Source: a virus
Virus record (IMG/VR): IMGVR_UViG_3300047388_000137
Span: 1 to 46,066 of that record
Length of the DNA: 46,066 nucleotides
Direction: 5' to 3' (one strand)
Part shown: piece after piece, positions 15,943 to 37,053 of the stretch
How positions within the stretch are numbered: position 1 is the first letter of the stretch
Layout: each line of letters begins with the position of its first letter
Program-made: the position numbers and the translations under genes
The notes under the pieces: generated by a model
Seen by the model: only the letters and a program-made list of their open reading frames with translations
What the model was told of the DNA's origin: nothing
The model's database searches: none

Positions 15943-16209
15943 AGGTAGATGGGGGATCGTCCGCGCTTGACAGCAGGGCTTCAAGGCTCCCGAAGGAACC
16001 GGCCCCGCCGCCTACGGACTCACTGCCGTCATTCGCTCGTCGCCGAATCTCGAACCCATCCGGGCAGGATGTTCCGGGCGCAGTTCCGCGTCGAATCCCA
16101 TTCGATGGGCGCGGTGCCGCTCCGGCATCCAATCGCAGTTGTCTACGAACCTTCCGAGCACGAGCATGGTGGGCTGATAGCGAACTAGACATGCCGACGA
16201 TCCCCCAAG
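15943..16209. other. Gap between tRNA-Asn and first late gene
   Basis: No convincing gene. A minus-strand frame from ATG 16192 runs 123 codons to 15821 (Arg-, Ser- and Gly-rich, no SD, overlapping the zinc-ribbon gene in another frame). It could be a poorly conserved protein but has little support. No second tRNA could be folded from the sequence. Confidence 0.4.
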
Positions 16210-16282
16210 CTGTGGAGGCTGGGCTCGAACCAGCGCGCTCCCGGTTAACAGCCGGGCGCTCTTCCAACTGAGCTACTCCACA
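16210..16282 (-). tRNA. tRNA-Asn (anticodon GTT)
   Basis: Read on the minus strand it folds as a complete cloverleaf. The acceptor TGTGGAG/CTCCACA has 7 perfect pairs. The D arm is AGCTCAGTTGGAAGAGC, the anticodon arm is CCCGG-CTGTTAA-CCGGG, and the T arm has GGTTCGAGCC. The anticodon is GTT, reading AAC/AAT. The discriminator is G and CCA is not encoded. It lies first in the leftward late transcript. Confidence 0.93.
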
Positions 16283-24112: not shown

Positions 24113-24162
24113 AGGGTACCGGCCCTTCCGCCTGGTGGCGGGGGCCGTAAGTCAAGCTGTGC

Positions 24163-24193
24163 TTTACAAAATCCAGCCGTTTCCGACTATACC
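24163..24193 (+). promoter_or_regulatory. Possible promoter before the sigma-like gene
   Basis: TTTACA (24163-24168) and TATACC (24188-24193), or ACTATA at 24186 with a 17 nt spacer, lie in a locally AT-rich stretch. With this -10 the transcript would begin close to ATG 24195, so the mRNA would be nearly leaderless. Confidence 0.3.
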
Positions 24194-24194
24194 T

Positions 24195-24704
24195 ATGGAG
24201 GGACAAATCGCCGATCACTTTGAGCAGCTCTGGACGAACACTCGCCCCGAGCTTCTCCGCTACTACGAACGCCGCCTGCCGAACCCGGCGGAAGCTGAGG
24301 ACGCAGTCCAGAGCCTCTTCGAGCAGCTCCTGAAGGTGCGGGGGGAGATCACTTCCCCGCTCGCCCTGATCCGCACGATGGCCGCACGCCTCCTCGCCGA
24401 CGCATACGACGCGCAGCGCGTGGCCCCCGAGCCGCTGAGCTACGAGAAGCTCATCGGCCTCGACGGCACAGGCCTCGATCACCTCCCGCAGTTCCAGACC
24501 GCGAGCTTCGACGACCTGATGTTCGACGGAGCGCACGACACCGCCGTGCGCGACCTCGCCGACGATCTCCGCGACGCCTACATCTTGGGCGAGCTTCGCG
24601 GGCTTCCTTCGCGTGAGTCCGGGCAAGTGCTCGGGGTCTCGCACGTCACCGCCGCTACCCGCCGGGAGCTGGCGACCACTGTCATTCGAGAGGAGATTGC
24701 GTGA
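24195..24704 (+). CDS. Sigma-70-family (ECF-like) sigma factor
   Basis: 169 aa from ATG 24195. Region 2-like N-terminus: TRPELLRYYERRLPNPAEAE, DAVQSLFEQLLKV and ALIRTMAARLLADAY. A linker follows. The C-terminal region 4-like HTH is ILGELRGLPSRESGQVLGVS then HVTAATRRELATT. This two-domain layout is that of ECF sigma factors, which redirect host RNA polymerase. Region 2 is divergent, so it may be weak or act as an anti-host factor. GGAGGGACAA occurs just inside the frame before ATC 24207, so a start there cannot be excluded. It is the first gene of the replication block. Confidence 0.7.
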   Translation: MEGQIADHFEQLWTNTRPELLRYYERRLPNPAEAEDAVQSLFEQLLKVRGEITSPLALIRTMAARLLADAYDAQRVAPEPLSYEKLIGLDGTGLDHLPQFQTASFDDLMFDGAHDTAVRDLADDLRDAYILGELRGLPSRESGQVLGVSHVTAATRRELATTVIREEIA

Positions 24705-27443: not shown

Positions 27444-28586
27444 TTGCGCATCCGCGAGTTCTGCTGGGACTCGTGGGCGAAGTGGGCGTTCGAGCGTTGG
27501 GCCGTTGACCTACCGACGGCCATCGCCGTCGACACTGAGACCACGGGGCTCGGCTTCCACGACGTGGCGTTCTGCGCCACGCTCACCTGGCGGCGTCCGA
27601 ACGGTGACCTCCAGAGTGCGTACATCGAGCTGGACGACGCTGACTGTCGCCCCATCGCGGGCGCGGGGATGCCCCCAGCAGGTGACCCCGAGAACCGGCG
27701 CGCCCTACTGAGGGCGATCCTCCACGGCACGGAGACCTGGGTGTTCTGGAATGCGAAGTTCGACCTCGCGCGCCTCGACTACCTCGGCATCCTGCCCCCG
27801 CTCGACGGGCACATCATCGAGGACGGTCAGCCCATCGCCGCGCTCATCAACGAGAACCGGCGCATGAAGCTGAAGGTCCGCGCCGTCGAGGATCTCGGCT
27901 TCGTGAACACGATCCAGGTTCAGGTGCAGTCCGGCCCGCGTAAGGGCGAGTGGGACGCGAAAGCGAAAGAGGAGCACCTCCTCGGCAAGCTGCGCACGAA
28001 GCTGAAGCTGACCAAGGAGGACGGCTACCACCTGATCCCCCGCGAGGCGATGATCCCGTACGCGCTCACCGACACCGAGCTGACGCTCCGCTGGTGGGAG
28101 AAGCACGCGCCGCTGCTGCCGGAAGATCTCATCCCCGTCTACGACGAGGAGATCGAGGTCGCGCACATCCTGCGCAAGATGGAGGGCAACGGCGTCGGCA
28201 TCGACGTGCCATACCTGACCGAGGCTGAGGACGAGTGGGGCGCGAAGGTGATGACCACCTGGCAGACGTTGGTTGGCCTGATCGGTCGGGATGACTTCAA
28301 CCCCAACTCGCCGAAGCAGCTCCTCGCCGCGTTCAAGACGGCGGGCGTGACGCTGGAGTCAACCGACAAGGCGCACCTCCGCGACATGGTCGCGAACAGG
28401 GCCTCCCCCAAGGAGGCCGTCCAGATCGCCCTCGCTCTGCGTGAGTATCGCGACGCGGAGAAGGTACATGGCACGTACTTGACTTCGCTGCTCGCGGATC
28501 AACGCGACTCGATTGCGCACCCGTGGCTGAACCCAGTCGGCCCCCGTACGGGGCGCATGTCCTCCTCCGTGGCGACGAACGATTAG
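27444..28586 (+). CDS. polA: DNA polymerase A, N-terminal part (exonuclease, palm start)
   Basis: 380 aa, TTG 27444. The 3'-5' exonuclease motifs are intact: Exo I AVDTETTG (D30, E32), Exo II VFWNAKFDLARL, Exo III YALTDTELTL. The thumb and start of the palm follow, ending at TGRMSSSVATND then TAG. Family A polymerases continue this RxSS motif with ..NxQNLP, which is found 955 nt downstream (29542). So this is the 5' part of one polymerase gene interrupted by an insert. It is either spliced or works as a separate subunit. Confidence 0.85.
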   Translation: MRIREFCWDSWAKWAFERWAVDLPTAIAVDTETTGLGFHDVAFCATLTWRRPNGDLQSAYIELDDADCRPIAGAGMPPAGDPENRRALLRAILHGTETWVFWNAKFDLARLDYLGILPPLDGHIIEDGQPIAALINENRRMKLKVRAVEDLGFVNTIQVQVQSGPRKGEWDAKAKEEHLLGKLRTKLKLTKEDGYHLIPREAMIPYALTDTELTLRWWEKHAPLLPEDLIPVYDEEIEVAHILRKMEGNGVGIDVPYLTEAEDEWGAKVMTTWQTLVGLIGRDDFNPNSPKQLLAAFKTAGVTLESTDKAHLRDMVANRASPKEAVQIALALREYRDAEKVHGTYLTSLLADQRDSIAHPWLNPVGPRTGRMSSSVATND

Positions 28587-28932: not shown

Positions 28933-29541
28933 TCCTGACGGACAGCCAGGCCGCACTGCTCGCGACGGGGCTGCCATACCTCACCGATCTGAACGATGAC
29001 CCCGTCGAGTGCGAGCAGATCAAAGCGCTCGCACAGTTCTTCTCAGCGGTCGCATCGAACCCGCTCGCGTTCCCCGTGCGGACACAGGCGATGGCGCGCT
29101 CGATCAAGAAGCGCGCGAAGCGTCTCCGAGCCGGTAGGTAGCTCTGAGCGACATAGAGCTGGCCTGGGCCGCTGGGTTCTTCGACGGCGAAGGCTGCGTG
29201 AGCATCTCACGCACCAAGCACAAGAACGGGCGCGAGTATCACCAACTCAAGGTAAAGGTTGGTCAGCGCGACCCACGCCCCCTCGAACGGCTCGTCGCGA
29301 TGTTCGGCGGAAACTCAAGGACTAACGGACGCGGGGTTGCGCTGTGGGAGGTCTCGTCCAGCGGCGCAGCCGCGATGCTGACGGCGTTGCTTCCGTACCT
29401 GCTCAACAAGCGCGAGCAGGCCGAGGTCGCACTCACATTCCAAGCTCGGAGAAACACCGGGCGCGGCAGGCTCGCCGTCCAGGATCGTGAACAGGACGCA
29501 GCCGACTTCGAGACCGTCAAGCGCCTAAAGCACGTGTATTG
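28584..29541 (+). mobile_element. Insert splitting polA: intron or homing-gene cluster
   Basis: About 955 nt separate GAT (last polA codon) from AACTGGCAAAATCTG. The exon ends in T and the insert can end in TTG just before AAC, as group I introns require (U at the 5' site, G at the 3' end). Splicing there would restore SSSVATND-NWQNLPG. It carries an Endo VII-like HNH gene, a 75 aa gene and a LAGLIDADG gene. I could not trace a full group I core by eye. Confidence 0.6.
28914..29141 (+). CDS. Small hypothetical protein within the polA insert (75 aa)
   Basis: ATG 28914, 3 nt after GGAGGCGG and overlapping the HNH stop by 19 nt. MRYVQIVLTDSQAALLATGL is a strand-helix start; the C-terminus is a basic helix (MARSIKKRAKRLRAGR). 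Unlike its neighbours it has no nuclease motif. It could be a passenger gene or a maturase-like helper. Confidence 0.6.
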   Translation: MRYVQIVLTDSQAALLATGLPYLTDLNDDPVECEQIKALAQFFSAVASNPLAFPVRTQAMARSIKKRAKRLRAGR

Positions 29542-29542
29542 A
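29144..29542 (+). CDS. LAGLIDADG homing endonuclease, CTG start
   Basis: 132 aa single-motif LAGLIDADG protein. ELAWAAGFFDGEGCVSIS is the LAGLIDADG helix with its catalytic acid, followed by LKVKVGQRDPRPLERLVAMF and a second alpha/beta half. One motif implies a homodimer. The frame opens after a TAG at 29135 and offers only CTG 29144, 5 nt after GGTAGG. It shares 32 identical bases with the copy at 34515. Its TGA overlaps the TTG of the downstream polA part. Confidence 0.8.
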   Translation: MSDIELAWAAGFFDGEGCVSISRTKHKNGREYHQLKVKVGQRDPRPLERLVAMFGGNSRTNGRGVALWEVSSSGAAAMLTALLPYLLNKREQAEVALTFQARRNTGRGRLAVQDREQDAADFETVKRLKHVY

Positions 29543-30327
29543 ACTGGCAAAATCTGCCCGGAGATCTGGTCGTTGTTCGCCGGGCCATCACTCCGAAGCA
29601 CCCTGAATGGGTGCTGCACGACTTCGACTTTTCCAAGATAGAGCCGCGCCTCCTCGCCTACTTCGCATCGAAGCGCGGGGACGATTCACTGGCCGGGTAC
29701 ATCCGCGACGGCCGCGACCCATACAAGGCGGTCGTGTCGCGGGTCTACGGAAAGACCGAGGCCGAACTCACCGACGCGGAATACAAACGCGGAAAAATCC
29801 TGTTCCTCTCGCTCATGTATGGCGGGGGGATCAAGACCATCCGCGAGCAGTTCGGCGTCGAGCACAAAGAGGCCAAGCGTCTCATCAACCAGTTTCACGA
29901 CGCATGGCCCATCGTGCGGCACTTGCAGGACGATCTCGTGCGCGTCGCCGAGAGGCGCGGGTACGTGCGCACACCGTGGGGTCGGCATCTTCACATGGAA
30001 GAGTTCGGATCCCACAAAATGTTGAACAAGCTCGTCCAGGGTAGTGCGGCGCACGCCTTGAAGCGTGCGCTGATCCGTGTCGACCGCTGGCTGGTCGAGA
30101 ACCCGCAGCTCCAGTCCCACATGATCCTGACGATCCACGACTCCATCGACTTCGACGGCCCTGCCGACGAGGCCGAGATTCTGCACGAGAACGTGCCCGG
30201 CCTGATGGTCGACGAGCCGCTGATCCAGGCGGTCGTTCCGCTCCTGGTCGAGCACGAGATCTCGCCACACAACTGGGCGGAACATCTGCCCTACGACGAA
30301 TGGAAGGAGAGCCTTGCCCAAGTGTAA
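29539..30327 (+). CDS. polA: DNA polymerase A, C-terminal part (palm/fingers)
   Basis: 262 aa from TTG 29539 (TTGA overlap with the LAGLIDADG stop), if translated alone. NWQNLPG continues the broken RxSS motif. Motif A is DFSKIEPR (D30, E35); motif B is KRGKILFLSLMYGGG (K86, Y94); motif C is ILTIHDSID (H200, D201). All polymerase catalytic residues lie here, with the exonuclease upstream. No SD precedes TTG, which favours splicing or coupling. Confidence 0.85.
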   Translation: MNWQNLPGDLVVVRRAITPKHPEWVLHDFDFSKIEPRLLAYFASKRGDDSLAGYIRDGRDPYKAVVSRVYGKTEAELTDAEYKRGKILFLSLMYGGGIKTIREQFGVEHKEAKRLINQFHDAWPIVRHLQDDLVRVAERRGYVRTPWGRHLHMEEFGSHKMLNKLVQGSAAHALKRALIRVDRWLVENPQLQSHMILTIHDSIDFDGPADEAEILHENVPGLMVDEPLIQAVVPLLVEHEISPHNWAEHLPYDEWKESLAQV

Positions 30328-31069: not shown

Positions 31070-31506
31070 TGGCCGAGGACTTCACCGTCAAGGACTCCGG
31101 CGAGCGCAAGCAGTTCGAGTCCGGGATGGTGCGCGACACCTCGGAGGGCAAGGTCAACTTCCTCCTGGTGCGCCCCGGCCCAATGCTCAAGCGCTGGGCC
31201 GCACACCTGACGAAGGCCGAGGCCAAGTACCCGCCCGTCGCGACTGGCGTCCCCAACTGGACGCTCGCTGCGGGGGAGGCCGAGCAGGAGCGCTTCCGCG
31301 AGTCCGCCGCTCGGCACTTCGAGTCGTGGATCAACGGGGAGCGTGACGAGGACCATGCCGCTGGCGTGTTCTTCAACATCAACGGTGCGGAGTACGTGCG
31401 CGACCGTCTCGCCGAGACCGAAGTGGACCACGCCGTCTACGAGTACGAGCGCATCCCCGTCCACGTCCCCGAGTTCCATGAGATCAGTCTGGGCGAGCTT
31501 GACTAA
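31069..31506 (+). CDS. dATP/dGTP diphosphohydrolase-like protein (N-terminal domain family)
   Basis: 145 aa, GTG 31069. It has the hallmarks of the phage family annotated from the N-terminal domain of dATP/dGTP diphosphohydrolase: RKQFESGMVRDTSEGKVNFL, EAKYPPV..GVPNW, EQERFRESAARHFESWINGE and DEDHAAGVFFNINGAEYV. In such phages it is linked to dNTP pool change, sometimes with modified bases. The catalytic HD partner is not fused. It is placed among replication genes. Confidence 0.75.
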   Translation: MAEDFTVKDSGERKQFESGMVRDTSEGKVNFLLVRPGPMLKRWAAHLTKAEAKYPPVATGVPNWTLAAGEAEQERFRESAARHFESWINGERDEDHAAGVFFNINGAEYVRDRLAETEVDHAVYEYERIPVHVPEFHEISLGELD

Positions 31507-31516
31507 GCCGCGCGTC

Positions 31517-31957
31517 ATGGGCGACACACCCCGCCACACAGTGGTGGTCGACTGGGATGGCACGGCTGTCCCGGCGATGTGGCCCGAGCAGCCCACCACG
31601 TTCCTGCCCGGATTCGTGGAGGCCATGCGGCGCTTCCGCGACGCAGGGCATCCCATCATCATCCACACGGCGCGGATCAACCCCATCGACCCGTGGTCGG
31701 GGGAGCGTCGGCCGCAAGCGCACATCGAGGCCGAGGTGCAGTACATCCGTGACGCGCTCGACGCGGCCCGGCTGAACTTCATCGGGATCTACCGCGGCGA
31801 GGGTAAGCCCGGCGGTGCCGTCTACATCGACGACAAGGCCGAACGCTACAACGAGGGCCTGAACAGTTGGGGCCGTCTCGCCGACAAGATCCTGCTTCGC
31901 CTCGACGGCGAGGAGCCGATCTTCCCGCACCACTCATCACAGGAGGTAACGCCCTGA
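31517..31957 (+). CDS. HAD-superfamily phosphatase
   Basis: 146 aa from ATG 31517; TTG 31499, in frame and overlapping the previous stop, is an alternative start. Motif I is VVVDWDGTA (D12, D14), motif II IIIHTARI, and the late acidic motif is YIDDKAERY. A small cap is inserted (RINPIDPWSGERRPQAHIEA). Likely a nucleotide or polynucleotide 3'-phosphatase type enzyme acting in DNA metabolism. The substrate cannot be read from the sequence. Confidence 0.78.
   Translation: MGDTPRHTVVVDWDGTAVPAMWPEQPTTFLPGFVEAMRRFRDAGHPIIIHTARINPIDPWSGERRPQAHIEAEVQYIRDALDAARLNFIGIYRGEGKPGGAVYIDDKAERYNEGLNSWGRLADKILLRLDGEEPIFPHHSSQEVTP
31941..31953 (+). promoter_or_regulatory. Strong Shine-Dalgarno that decides a CTG start
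   Basis: AGGAGGTAA with GGAGG (31942-31946) exactly 7 nt from CTG 31954 and 22 nt from the only nearby ATG (31969). Confidence 0.65.
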
Positions 31958-32133
31958 CCCAAGATGACATGCGCGAGCGCATCCGTGAGTTGGACGGCGG
32001 ACAGGAGATCCTGACGCAGAAGATCGACCGCCTGGAGCGTGCTCTGACCAAGCTAGTCGACGGGGTGGCCTACAACCCGGTCTTCGCTGCTGAGTGCGCA
32101 AGCGAGATACTCAGCTCGACGTTCCCGATCTAG
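31954..32133 (+). CDS. Small coiled-coil protein (59 aa), CTG start
   Basis: CTG 31954 overlaps the preceding TGA as CTGA, the same geometry as the ATGA and GTGA overlaps elsewhere, and is 7 nt after GGAGG. An ATG five codons on (31969) is too far from the SD. The protein is a coiled coil (MRERIRELDGGQEILTQKID then RLERALTKLVDG) with a short tail. Its stop overlaps the GTG of the primase-helicase. Perhaps a helicase loader or small partner; not recognised. Confidence 0.65.
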   Translation: MTQDDMRERIRELDGGQEILTQKIDRLERALTKLVDGVAYNPVFAAECASEILSSTFPI

Positions 32134-33530
32134 TGGCGCTAGACCCCGCCGCGACTCGCTGGTTCGAGTCGCGCAGGGGTATCAAGAAGACGACGGTCGA
32201 AGCCTTCGGTGTCTACACGGAGAAGCGTGACCTCGTCTTCCCGTACCCCGGAGGACTCATCAAGCGGCGCTACTCGACCGACCCGGACAACCCGTTCGGG
32301 CTAGAGAAGGAAGAGCGCCGCTTCACCTGGGAGGACGCTGACGGCGGCCCGGCCGGAGCGGGGCAGGTTCCTTTCCTGCCGCCCGACTTCGAGATGGGCA
32401 CGCACGGCTTCCTCGTCGAGGGTGAGACCGACACGATGGCGCTCTGGCAGAACGCTCCCGAAGCGGCACGTAAGCAGATCGTTGGACTGTCCGGCACCGG
32501 CTCGTTCGAGAAGTCCGGCGCGGCCGACCTCTACGAGGACGCGCGCGTCGTCTTCGTGGTCTTCGACAACGACGACCCGTACGTCTCCAACGACGCAGCG
32601 GAGTCGACTGAACGTGCCTGGCGCACCGTCCGTTCCAAGCTGGGCGCGAAGGCCCGTCGTGTGACGCTCCCCCAGGGCGTCAACGACGTGGCCGAGTTCT
32701 TCGAGAAGTACAGTTGGTCCGCCTTCAAGGTGCTCCTGGAGGCAGCGTCGACCCCGCAGATGAACTACCCGCGGCTCGACCTGAAGAAGGAGCCGAAGCC
32801 GGTCGACTGGATCCTCGACGGCCTGATCGCCTCGCCGGACATCACGGTGCTGTGGGGCGACGGCGGCGTGTCGAAGTCGCTCTTCATCCAGGCCCTCGCG
32901 GTCGCGATGGCGAACGGCGACAAGACCTTCCTCGACCTGCCGCTGCTGAAGCACGGCCGTATCCTCTACATCGACGAGGAGAACCCCGAGGACGTGGTGC
33001 TCTCCCGGTTGCCGAAGCTGGGGCTCACCGACAAGGGGCGGGAGAACCTCTACTACGTCTGGTACGGCGGCGTCCGTCTCGACTCTGAGCCGGAGAAGCT
33101 GTACGACGACGTGCTGGAGTTCAACCCGACCGCGCTCTTCATCGACTCGTTCTCCCGCATCCAGACCGCTCCCGAGAACGACGCGGACGTGATGAACAAG
33201 ATCTTCACGGACGCGATCTACCCGGTGGCGCGTCGGCTCAAGGTGCCTGTGATCGCGCTGCACCACTCGAACAAGTCCGGCGGGATCCGCGGGAGTACCG
33301 CGATCCGCAACGCCGCCGACCTGAGCTTGAAGGTCGAGGCCGCCACGTCCGGCGCGAACACCCTCATCAACACCTACCGGATGAACCCGGACAAGCCCCG
33401 CCGCGGGCAGTCCACGACGCTGGCCTACAAGGTCATCGGCCGTGACGCCAAGGGCGAGGAGACCGACGTGCTCGATGACGAGGTAACCGTCGAGCTTCAA
33501 TCGCTCGTGTCCCGAGAGGAGATCTACTGA
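32133..33530 (+). CDS. Primase-helicase (TOPRIM plus RecA-like ATPase)
   Basis: 465 aa, GTG 32133 (TAGTG overlap). TOPRIM: FLVEGETD (about 93-100) and FDNDD (144-148), after an N-terminal primase-like part. RecA-like ATPase: Walker A WGDGGVSKS (241-249), Walker B ALFIDSF (334-340), then IALHHSNKSGGIRGSTAIRN as in RepA/AAA_25-type phage helicases. No zinc finger is seen, so priming may be limited. It acts at the fork with the phage polymerase and SSB. Confidence 0.85.
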   Translation: MALDPAATRWFESRRGIKKTTVEAFGVYTEKRDLVFPYPGGLIKRRYSTDPDNPFGLEKEERRFTWEDADGGPAGAGQVPFLPPDFEMGTHGFLVEGETDTMALWQNAPEAARKQIVGLSGTGSFEKSGAADLYEDARVVFVVFDNDDPYVSNDAAESTERAWRTVRSKLGAKARRVTLPQGVNDVAEFFEKYSWSAFKVLLEAASTPQMNYPRLDLKKEPKPVDWILDGLIASPDITVLWGDGGVSKSLFIQALAVAMANGDKTFLDLPLLKHGRILYIDEENPEDVVLSRLPKLGLTDKGRENLYYVWYGGVRLDSEPEKLYDDVLEFNPTALFIDSFSRIQTAPENDADVMNKIFTDAIYPVARRLKVPVIALHHSNKSGGIRGSTAIRNAADLSLKVEAATSGANTLINTYRMNPDKPRRGQSTTLAYKVIGRDAKGEETDVLDDEVTVELQSLVSREEIY

Positions 33531-34156: not shown

Positions 34157-34522
34157 CTGGCGACCAACTACACCCGCGGGCGTGCCTTCGAGTACCGCAC
34201 GCGGGACGCACTGAAGAAGCGCGGCGCGGCGTACGTCATGCGGGCGGCACAGTCGAAAGGCATCGCCGACCTACTCGTGCTCTGGCCCGTCAGGACGTTC
34301 ATGGAGTGTGACCCTGAGCAGACCTGGAGATCGCGCGAGCGACCCTGGCTGGTGCAGTGTAAGTACAGCATCCACGGCGGGGGCTACCTGCCCGGCAAGG
34401 ACGCCATCGAGCTGATCGCTCTGGCCGAACTGACCGGCGCACTCCCCGTCTTCGCCCGGCCCGGCAAGAACGGGCGCGGCGTCGAGTTCACCAACCTCAA
34501 CAGTAAGGAGCCGATTGGCTAG
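34157..34522 (+). CDS. PD-(D/E)XK nuclease, Holliday-junction-resolvase-like
   Basis: Core: TRGRAFEYRTRDALKKRGAA, YVMRAAQSKGIADLLVLW (E, then D), PWLVQCKYS (Q-x-K), and DAIELIALAELTG. This is the archaeal Hjc/VRR-like resolvase arrangement, length 121 aa. Start is CTG 34157, 2 nt after the previous TGA and the last start before the conserved helix. TTG 34130 is a canonical alternative with a 26 nt overlap. Probably resolves branched DNA in replication and packaging. Confidence 0.75.
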   Translation: MATNYTRGRAFEYRTRDALKKRGAAYVMRAAQSKGIADLLVLWPVRTFMECDPEQTWRSRERPWLVQCKYSIHGGGYLPGKDAIELIALAELTGALPVFARPGKNGRGVEFTNLNSKEPIG

Positions 34523-34874
34523 CGTGACAGAGCTGGCCTGGGCCGCTGGGTTCTTCGACGGTGAGGGCAGTTCAGTGTCCGGCCAGAGAGGGGAACCCCG
34601 TCCGAAGAAGGACGGAAGCCCCGGCTCTCGGCAGAGGTCGTACGTGCGGATCTCCATTCCGCAGAAAGACCGATTCAACCTGGAGCGTTTCCAAGCCGCT
34701 GTTGGCGGCGTGGGAAGTATCACCGACGAGATCAGCCGGGACATCTCTCGCTACTCGGCCGCTGGCACACGCGCCCTCTGGGTCATGCACCTGCTGTGGT
34801 CGCATCTCGGCCACGCAAAGCGCGCGCAGTTCGTGCGCGCTCTCCGCGCATCTCACGAAAGGAACACCCAATAG
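34515..34874 (+). CDS. Second LAGLIDADG homing endonuclease (119 aa)
   Basis: TTG 34515, 4 nt after AAGGAG and overlapping the resolvase stop; GTG 34524 is too far from the SD. ELAWAAGFFDGEGSSVS is the LAGLIDADG motif, followed by YVRISIPQKDRFNLERFQAA and a helical end. A stretch of 32 bases (34530-34561) is identical to the copy in polA. It is free-standing between the resolvase and ssb genes, not splitting a gene. Probably targets a neighbouring or allelic site. Confidence 0.8.
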   Translation: MASVTELAWAAGFFDGEGSSVSGQRGEPRPKKDGSPGSRQRSYVRISIPQKDRFNLERFQAAVGGVGSITDEISRDISRYSAAGTRALWVMHLLWSHLGHAKRAQFVRALRASHERNTQ

Positions 34875-35245
34875 TGGCAGATACGTACAGAACGTTCACT
34901 GGGTTCGTCAAGTTCGACCTGAACGACGGAGACGCAGCGGGTAAGCCCGTGCGCAGCTTCGTCATCCGCCAGGCTGGCGTGAAGGATCAGGCGCTCGACA
35001 TCCGCTGCACCCTCTGGCCGTCGCACGACAGCGTCGAGCTGGAGAAGGGTGATGCCGTCCTCGTCGAGGGCAAGTTCACCGTCAACAAGGCGAAGGACAA
35101 GCAGGGCGACCCGCAGACGTACTTCAACCTGTCCGTCTCGAACATCATCGTGCTCGGCCCCGGCGACCGCGGTGAGCGCGTCGAGACCGCCAACACGAGC
35201 ACTGACGACGACCCGGCAGCCGCTGACGACGACATCCCGTACTAG
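34874..35245 (+). CDS. ssb: Single-stranded DNA-binding protein
   Basis: 123 aa, GTG 34874 (TAGTG overlap). OB-fold pattern: TYRTFTGFVKFDLNDGD, FVIRQAG..ALDIRCTLWPS, GDAVLVEGKFTVN and FNLSVSNIIVLGP. The acidic C-terminal tail ends DDDIPY, like the DDDIPF tip that recruits partner proteins. It protects single strands for the primase, polymerase and Erf. Placed next to the resolvase despite the inserted LAGLIDADG gene. Confidence 0.85.
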   Translation: MADTYRTFTGFVKFDLNDGDAAGKPVRSFVIRQAGVKDQALDIRCTLWPSHDSVELEKGDAVLVEGKFTVNKAKDKQGDPQTYFNLSVSNIIVLGPGDRGERVETANTSTDDDPAAADDDIPY

Positions 35246-35248
35246 GGC

Positions 35249-35584
35249 GTGACGAGGGACATGAACGGCGAGGTCGCGGGCTACCGCGATCTCGTCGAGT
35301 CCCTCGCGCGCAAGTTTGTCGGGCGCAACGGCGCGGAGCTTGACGACCTGGTGCAAGAGGGTCTTGTGAATGTGTGGCAGACGCTGGAGCGGGGGATCCA
35401 ACCCAGCGCGCAGATCATCGAGGATCGCATGAGGAACTGGACGAAGCTGATGGGCTCGCAGACCGGCCGGTCGCTGATCGAGGACGCGAACGGGAATCTC
35501 GTGAGCTACGAGACGCTTCTCCCGCTCGACGACTTCCAGCACCTGTCCTACGAGCCCGTCATCGAAGTGGATGCCCTCAGCTAG
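35249..35584 (+). CDS. Sigma factor region 2 protein (split sigma, part 1)
   Basis: 111 aa from GTG 35249 (ATG 35261 is an alternative). YRDLVESLARKFVGRNGAEL, DDLVQEGLVNVWQTLERGI and SAQIIEDRMRNWTKLMG match sigma-70 region 2, which binds the RNA polymerase clamp helices and melts the -10. Region 4 is missing here and appears as the next gene. The last 14 nt overlap that gene in a different frame. Together they look like the SigO/RsoA-style two-subunit sigma. Confidence 0.7.
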   Translation: MTRDMNGEVAGYRDLVESLARKFVGRNGAELDDLVQEGLVNVWQTLERGIQPSAQIIEDRMRNWTKLMGSQTGRSLIEDANGNLVSYETLLPLDDFQHLSYEPVIEVDALS

Positions 35585-35867
35585 GAGCTGGGGTAGCTAC
35601 GACGAAGCTGAAGTCCAAGCGCTGATCGACCACTACTGGAGCTTGCAGTTCCTGAAGCACCGGCCCGTCATCCACGTCCGCCTAATGGACCTGGAGGTGG
35701 CGCTGCGTCACCTTCCGCGCAAGCTCCACGAGGTGATGATCGTGTACGGGCTCCTTCGGTTCACGTCGCGCGCCGCGGGTGAAGCGCTCTCGATCTCGGA
35801 GAGTGCGGTGCGCAAACGCTACCGCCAGGGACTAGACCTAATGCTCTACCGAATGAACGGAGACTGA
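35571..35867 (+). CDS. Sigma factor region 4-like protein (split sigma, part 2)
   Basis: 98 aa, ATG 35571 within the end of part 1, +1 frame. VRLMDLEVALRHLPRKLHEV, MIVYGLLRFTSRAAGEALSI and SESAVRKRYRQGLDLMLY form the sigma region 4 helix-turn-helix that reads the -35. It likely pairs with part 1 on host polymerase to transcribe late or middle genes. A frameshifted fusion is possible; the overlap has no obvious slippery run. Confidence 0.7.
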   Translation: MPSARSWGSYDEAEVQALIDHYWSLQFLKHRPVIHVRLMDLEVALRHLPRKLHEVMIVYGLLRFTSRAAGEALSISESAVRKRYRQGLDLMLYRMNGD

Positions 35868-36137
35868 GTGGGCGAAGAAACACGGCCCTTGAGGCTGGAA
35901 ATCGAAGCTGTCGACGCAGAAGACCTCGCGTCCGCAGAGAACGCGACCATGCTGGTCACGGGCGCGAAGACGACGATCCTCGCGCTGGCTGAGGTGATCG
36001 TGCTCGTCACCGAAGGCACCGTCGTGTCCGCCACGAGCTACTCCGACGGAGAGCCGACGGACATCACCTCGGCCTTCGTCGCCGAGCCGCAGATGATTGA
36101 CCCCCTCGACGCGGGGGACGGGCCTGTCAGCGGCTAA
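35868..36137 (+). CDS. Hypothetical protein (89 aa)
   Basis: GTG 35868 follows the previous TGA. Mixed beta and helix (TRPLRLEIEAVDAEDLASAE; TMLVTGAKTTILALAEVIVL), acidic end. A broad hydrophobic centre could be a membrane or core segment. The phosphoesterase gene begins inside its end. Not recognised. Confidence 0.65.
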   Translation: MGEETRPLRLEIEAVDAEDLASAENATMLVTGAKTTILALAEVIVLVTEGTVVSATSYSDGEPTDITSAFVAEPQMIDPLDAGDGPVSG

Positions 36138-37053
36138 GTTCTCGCCGGAGACGTACGTCGCTCTCCGGGAGCAGGGCCTCAACAACATCCAGATCGCGGA
36201 CGAACTCAAGGTGTCCGAGGCCGCGGTACGCCGCGGACTCCACAAGGCGAACTACTCGCCGTACCTGATCCCCGCGCCGGTCATCAAGCGGCTCGACATC
36301 GCGCTTGAGAAACCGATCCGCCTCGACGTGCGGAAGCAAGGCCCCGGCGCGATCACCTCGGACTGGCACCACCCCGTGACTAACTACGCGCTGGTCAACA
36401 CGTTCATCGACCACGCCCGCGACATCGGCGCAACGAACTGGCTGGTCGTGGCTGGGGACTGGTTCAACGTCGATGCACTCAGCGCGTTCGACTACAAGCA
36501 GGCTGACGCTGACCTGACGAAGGAGATCTACGGCTCGACGCAGACGATGGTCCGGCTGCTGGAGACGTTCGACAAGATCTACCTAAGCTGGGGCAACCAC
36601 GACGCCCGCGTGCACAAGTCGCTCGGCTACAAGGTGCCGTTCACCGCGGCGATGCGGTTCATGTTCTCCGACCTGAGCCCATCGCTGTTCGAGGATCGGA
36701 TCGTGCTGTCGAACCTCGACAACATCATCATCGACTCGGCGCACGGTCCGCTCATGGTGTGCCATCCGAAGGCGTACAGCTCGGTGCCGCTGACGCAGTC
36801 GCGTCGGCTCGCGTCGAAGCACCTGATGTCGGTCATCACCGGGCACTCGCACCACACGGCCATCGGGCACGACGTGTCCGGGCAGTTCGTGGCGGGTGAG
36901 CTTGGCGGGTTCTTCGACAAGAACAAGGTCGAGTACCTCCAGCGCACCACCGCCTTCCCGAATTGGCAAAACGGATACGGCTTCGTGGACGCCGATGGCT
37001 ACCCCTTCATCGAGGGCCAGGGATGGTCTTCACGCATCGGAAAGAGGATCTAG
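36097..37053 (+). CDS. Calcineurin-like phosphoesterase with N-terminal HTH
   Basis: 318 aa from TTG 36097; CTG 36124, 5 nt after GGGGGA, is a plausible alternative. An HTH lies near the start (QGLNNIQIADELKVSEAAVR). The metallophosphoesterase motifs follow in order: SDWHHPV (D.H), VAGDWFN (GD), WGNHDARVH (GNHD), VCHPK and ITGHSHHTA (GH.H). It is a metal-dependent phosphatase or nuclease. DNA-repair, RNA or cyclic-nucleotide substrates are all possible. The HTH suggests DNA targeting. Confidence 0.8.
   Translation: MTPSTRGTGLSAAKFSPETYVALREQGLNNIQIADELKVSEAAVRRGLHKANYSPYLIPAPVIKRLDIALEKPIRLDVRKQGPGAITSDWHHPVTNYALVNTFIDHARDIGATNWLVVAGDWFNVDALSAFDYKQADADLTKEIYGSTQTMVRLLETFDKIYLSWGNHDARVHKSLGYKVPFTAAMRFMFSDLSPSLFEDRIVLSNLDNIIIDSAHGPLMVCHPKAYSSVPLTQSRRLASKHLMSVITGHSHHTAIGHDVSGQFVAGELGGFFDKNKVEYLQRTTAFPNWQNGYGFVDADGYPFIEGQGWSSRIGKRI

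Follow-up and report, generated by a model that had tools for sequence, protein, structure and literature searches.

A putative phage sigma factor divided between two overlapping genes in a lineage of uncultured viruses

Sigma factors are almost always a single chain, which ties the recognition of the -10 and -35 promoter elements together. Among the split cases compared here, the best studied are the SigO-RsoA pair and the T4 pair, in the latter of which the sigma-4 part is a mimic. In Bacillus subtilis, sigma-4 and sigma-2 are carried by two proteins, SigO and RsoA respectively (PMC8103513), and a segment of RsoA resembling region 2.3 is reported, in the title of a reference cited in that paper, to mediate the contact between the two. 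For phage T4, the term split sigma has already been applied to gp55 together with gp33, a mimic of sigma-4 that has no sequence similarity to it (PMC2988020; structures in PMC7892883), while in phage SPO1 gp34 acts with gp33 in late transcription (PMC3601020). Furthermore, the GafA protein of gene transfer agents contains sigma-like segments that are either fused or, in Hyphomicrobiales, encoded by two genes (PMC9638019). A sequence-only reading of the DNA studied here had proposed that it encodes a sigma factor in two pieces, with one gene for region 2 and another for region 4, and that such a pair would be a new way for phages to control late transcription. The second part of this proposal, taken as a first in phages, was too strong, because T4 gp55 with gp33 (PMC2988020), SPO1 gp33 with gp34 (PMC3601020) and SigO with RsoA were already known; the first part is the subject of the present analysis.

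The sigma-like genes and their neighbourhood

The window, that is, the whole stretch of DNA that was analysed, is a complete IMG/VR record of 46,066 bases. Its minus strand carries genes for a terminase, a portal, a major head protein and an internal virion protein, as well as endolysin-like genes and an integrase, and its plus strand carries the replication genes; it therefore represents a podovirus-like phage with an integrase. The two sigma-like open reading frames, ORF A and ORF B, lie in the replication operon, after the primase-helicase and single-strand binding protein (SSB) genes (Table 1). Their arrangement agrees with the earlier description: the second gene opens in the +1 frame, 14 nt before the first one ends. 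In the ORF list, ORF A runs from an alternative GTG start at 35249 to the stop at 35584 (111 aa) and is followed by ORF B at 35571-35867. For the region-2 protein, 107 aa is the probable length, because its relatives align from the ATG at 35261 (MNGEVAGY...). In frame 0 of ORF A, a second stop (GGG TAG, 35594-35596) lies 12 nt past the first. ORF A matches Pfam Sigma70_r2 (E 6.2e-8 to 6.8e-8) and ORF B matches Pfam Sigma70_r4_2 (E 3.1e-6), both over the family cut-off, in line with the proposed division of a sigma factor into two genes.

Table 1. Features of the window discussed in the text
Feature	Position	Strand	Remarks
Putative sigma-2 subunit gene	35261..35584	+	107 aa; sigma-70 region 2 followed by a tail that carries a VSYETLLPLDDF motif
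Putative sigma-4 subunit gene	35571..35867	+	Helical N-terminal extension with invariant Tyr, then sigma-70 region 4; 98 aa from ATG
Gene overlap, 14 nt	35571..35584	+	Sigma-4 start within sigma-2 end, +1 frame; from sequence and ORF list
Primase-helicase gene	32094..33530	+	phrog_239, E 2.8e-26; upstream of the pair; query for finding relatives in the viral scan
SSB-like gene	34874..35245	+	phrog_44 single-strand binding protein, E 2e-5; likely start GTG 34874
HTH and metallophosphoesterase gene	36097..37053	+	Pfam Metallophos, E 1.9e-6; downstream of the pair, conserved synteny
Family-A DNA polymerase, part 1	27444..28586	+	Exonuclease and first third of polymerase domain (PF00476 3-124)
Family-A DNA polymerase, part 2	29539..30327	+	PF00476 127-381
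HNH/LAGLIDADG-like gene	29198..29542	+	phrog_5046 family; within the split polymerase
HNH/LAGLIDADG-like gene	34515..34874	+	phrog_5046 family; just upstream of SSB
Second, full-length sigma-like ORF	24135..24704	+	phrog_1740, E 8e-6; PF04542, 22 bits
Phosphoheptose isomerase-like ORF	31343..31957	+	Early operon; phrog_1238, E 2e-9
tRNA-Asn gene	16209..16282	-	

The SSB-like gene lies directly upstream of the sigma pair in the window and upstream of it in relatives too, a case of conserved synteny. Downstream of the pair, the metallophosphoesterases of relatives show 39-56% identity, and most of them have the N-terminal HTH. The region-4 protein ends in an NG that is conserved in the alignment of relatives; this may partly reflect overlapping coding, because the start of the metallophosphoesterase gene often overlaps the LNG or MNG codons.

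Several further features of these genomes were noted. The family-A DNA polymerase is also encoded in two parts, with an endonuclease VII-like gene and an HNH gene between them. The split point, near a TGRxSS...NxQNIP motif, is identical in more than 35 related loci, none of which was seen to have a single-ORF family-A polymerase, and the gap between the parts ranges from 3 nt (L087) up to 2.2 kb (L050). In addition to the second sigma-like ORF of the window, sigma-like ORFs of 169-233 aa were found apart from the split pair in three genomes (G001, G016 and G018). The tRNA was the only match in an Rfam scan.

Relatives of the pair and the identity of its domains

Searches with the DNA or with the single proteins of ORF A and ORF B found no relatives in INPHARED phages or IMG/VR. 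Relatives were reached through the neighbouring metallophosphoesterase and primase-helicase, and profiles of both sigma domains were then run on the neighbourhoods. After removal of duplicates, this gave 42 distinct viral loci, counting the window, that have both domains and lie on metagenomic contigs. These loci share the gene order primase-helicase, SSB, sigma-2, sigma-4 and then, usually, the HTH-metallophosphoesterase. Sigma-2 and sigma-4 lie in different ORFs in 40 of the 42 and in a single ORF in the other two (L005 and L088). The proposed division is thus upheld, and the recurrence of the two-ORF arrangement in 40 of 42 diverged viral loci is far from chance.

Among the 40 split loci, region 4 is in the +1 phase relative to region 2 in 37, in the +2 phase in two (L050 and L036) and in phase 0 in one (L059). 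The two genes of most relatives overlap by 11-53 nt, those of L050 by 4 nt and those of L003 and L059 not at all. The region 4 of L036 / L087, in phase +2, is without the N-terminal extension and may represent a replacement by an ordinary sigma-4. Three related contigs (L057, L095 and L103) carry neither sigma domain. Of the two single ORFs, that of L005 has a shorter and different region 4, while in L088 the halves are fused in frame and the region-4 ATG is retained; its sequence (RMKDWVRFTKRLRYLQSDESKKAFMDYDTKTIKEF...) runs from the region-2 end into the opening residues of region 4, including the start Met. In a quick primase tree with long branches, the phase 0 locus, the phase +2 loci and the L088 fusion were placed separately among the +1 split loci. 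Because the exceptions are nested in this way, the +1 split is probably the ancestral state and L088 is probably a secondary fusion. A full-length form in relatives had been named beforehand as a sign of error in this sequence; such a form does exist, in L088, but it is derived and does not carry that meaning. We consider the split to be real and old, since about 40 related uncultured viruses share it and one of them has rejoined the halves.

Outside the viral records, a scan of GTDB revealed one Coriobacteriia MAG contig with a split pair (region 2 from position 1814, region 4 from an ATG at 2055, phase +1), which is a mere hint at the host because contigs in such bins can be misplaced. A scan of GTDB contigs for the metallophosphoesterase gave no match, and no member was found among isolated phages, the one match being at E 0.08.

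All of the aligned region-2 members (31/31) match Sigma70_r2. Their alignment contains an invariant DLxQ followed by a nearly invariant E, residues that we equate with the core-binding motif in region 2.2 of sigma, whose partner is the beta' clamp helices. The AlphaFold2 model of the region-2 protein (pLDDT 84, core >95) has helices at residues 9-16, 27-43 and 50-69 and a low-confidence tail, which in the clade of the window carries a conserved YExLLPxD-like motif; its structure matches were mostly sigma-2 domains, weaker than the matches of region 4. For region 4, 13 of 33 members match Sigma70_r4_2, many relatives being too diverged for Pfam alone. The region-4 protein of the window was modelled with a pLDDT of 92.9, with N-terminal helices around the invariant Tyr residues followed by the sigma-4 helices. 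The leading Foldseek matches of this model were sigma factors, the best having a probability of 1.0 and an rmsd of ~1 Å over ~57 residues to solved sigma-4 domains, with all E values at least 0.07. Homology in region 2, and homology together with the modelled fold in region 4, would thus assign both proteins to the sigma-70 group.

It is conceivable, if rather unlikely, that the region-2 protein is a complete sigma on its own and that its region-4 neighbour acts separately, as a flap-binding or HTH regulator (for example, a coactivator or a Q-like antiterminator) that need not read the -35 element. T4 gp55 alone gives basal transcription. In the same phage, gp33 fills the sigma-4 site yet shows no sequence-specific binding to DNA (PMC2988020, PMC7892883), and 7 of the 33 region-4 members match phrog_79, annotated as anti-termination protein Q-like. 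On the other hand, the model of region 4 shows a complete sigma-4 fold, HTH included, most region-4 members match families of sigma factors, and the L088 fusion keeps the usual sigma order; these observations argue against a separate regulator.

Expression of the region-4 product

A programmed +1 ribosomal frameshift near the region-2 stop would yield one full-length sigma, with the short region-2 protein as a by-product. This explanation was favoured at first, when the phase was a constant +1 in the first 13 loci and most of the relatives found first had the region-2 stop (TAA or TAG), often with a C next, 4 nt ahead of the invariant Tyr codon; it was dropped after the start-codon test and the appearance of other phases, and we now consider it improbable. 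Nearly all members of the region-4 alignment open with a start codon (ATG, TTG or GTG) 1-9 codons before the invariant Tyr, and those of the low-GC clade have a Met 1-4 residues before this Tyr. An ATG lies no more than 10 codons upstream of the Tyr in 27 of 33 loci, whereas the composition of this frame farther upstream would lead one to expect 7.9; the count is far above chance, although the p value is nominal because the loci are related. Similarly, 8 of 13 loci in an earlier set had an ATG within 9 codons, compared to 1.6 expected. In four loci (L075, L078, L084 and L092), the open frame of region 4 starts directly at an ATG after an in-frame stop, and in L003 the region-4 start is downstream of the region-2 stop. 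Furthermore, L050 (an ATGA overlap in phase +2) and L059 (the region-2 stop, 12 nt and then an ATG, in phase 0) keep the start and cannot be +1 frameshifts because of their phases. No shared slippery motif was found at the junction, where AGC, GGC, GGG, AGG, GTC, TCG, GAA, GAG and other codons precede the stop. Sequence comparison therefore disfavours the frameshift that had been named as a point to check at this locus: instead of an invariant phase and no independent downstream start, it revealed phases 0, +1 and +2, starts belonging to region 4 itself and no common slip codon.

Substitutions in the overlap were silent in 78 of 165 cases in the region-4 frame and in 32 of 165 in the region-2 frame, from few independent pairs; this excess appears to point the same way, toward two genes. 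A weak Shine-Dalgarno sequence precedes the region-4 start in the window, L026, L037 and L030, the last of which is without a nearby ATG, but its strength is non-discriminating, as region-2 starts are often weak as well. What speaks against two free genes is that 37 of the 40 split loci share the +1 phase, which such genes would not require, while the phase between region 4 and the gene after it is more variable than that between region 2 and region 4. The predominance of +1 is partly explained, because in most loci region 4 starts while 11-53 nt of region 2 are still to come, and an indel there would hurt both genes.

A sequencing error or a decaying pseudogene of a full-length sigma, which the ordinary-size full-length sigma at the same locus in L005 and L088 might suggest, is refuted by the split relatives, since both halves are retained with start codons in 40 diverged loci and L088 is nested among them.

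A two-subunit model and its known counterparts

In our view, this locus probably specifies a phage sigma factor of two subunits, made from genes that are coupled in translation. The simplest mechanism would be a holoenzyme with two phage subunits, in which region 4 keeps its flap- and -35-binding fold: the sigma-2 protein would dock on the clamp helices of the host RNA polymerase and recognise the -10 element, while the sigma-4 protein would bind the beta flap and recognise the -35 element, so that promoters would be chosen by both. The existence of a natural fusion in L088 suggests that the halves work together, and the overlapping start and stop may couple the translation of the two products. 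The position of the pair would fit a middle or late switch, possibly from the replication operon to later genes.

The ~40 diverged examples, with their three phases and one fusion, lend themselves to a comparative study of how, and for what reason, -10 and -35 recognition can be uncoupled. They also carry a warning for annotation, namely that small adjoining region-2 and region-4 ORFs are real genes. In the open-access literature, we found no report of a phage sigma factor divided into homologous region-2 and region-4 genes, and a split of two homologous sigma domains throughout a phage lineage seems to be undescribed.

Of the systems compared, GafA is likewise a transcription factor with sigma-like segments that has both fused and two-gene forms, but its likeness to sigma is tentative and its action runs through the omega subunit. 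The SPO1 gp33-gp34 pair, two phage proteins that act jointly in late transcription (PMC3601020), may be a parallel to the window pair. The likeness to T4 lies in the combination of a phage sigma-2 protein with another small protein that serves the sigma-4 site (PMC2988020, PMC7892883); however, gp33 is unrelated to sigma-4 in structure and has no sequence-specific DNA binding, whereas the second protein of the window has, according to Pfam and Foldseek, a true sigma-4 fold. As judged from the two reading frames, sigma-2 and sigma-4 would be on separate polypeptides, as in SigO-RsoA. In contrast to that pair, the one described here is encoded by a phage, its region-2 gene comes first and overlaps the region-4 gene, and it has been kept through a viral lineage, beside the replication genes.
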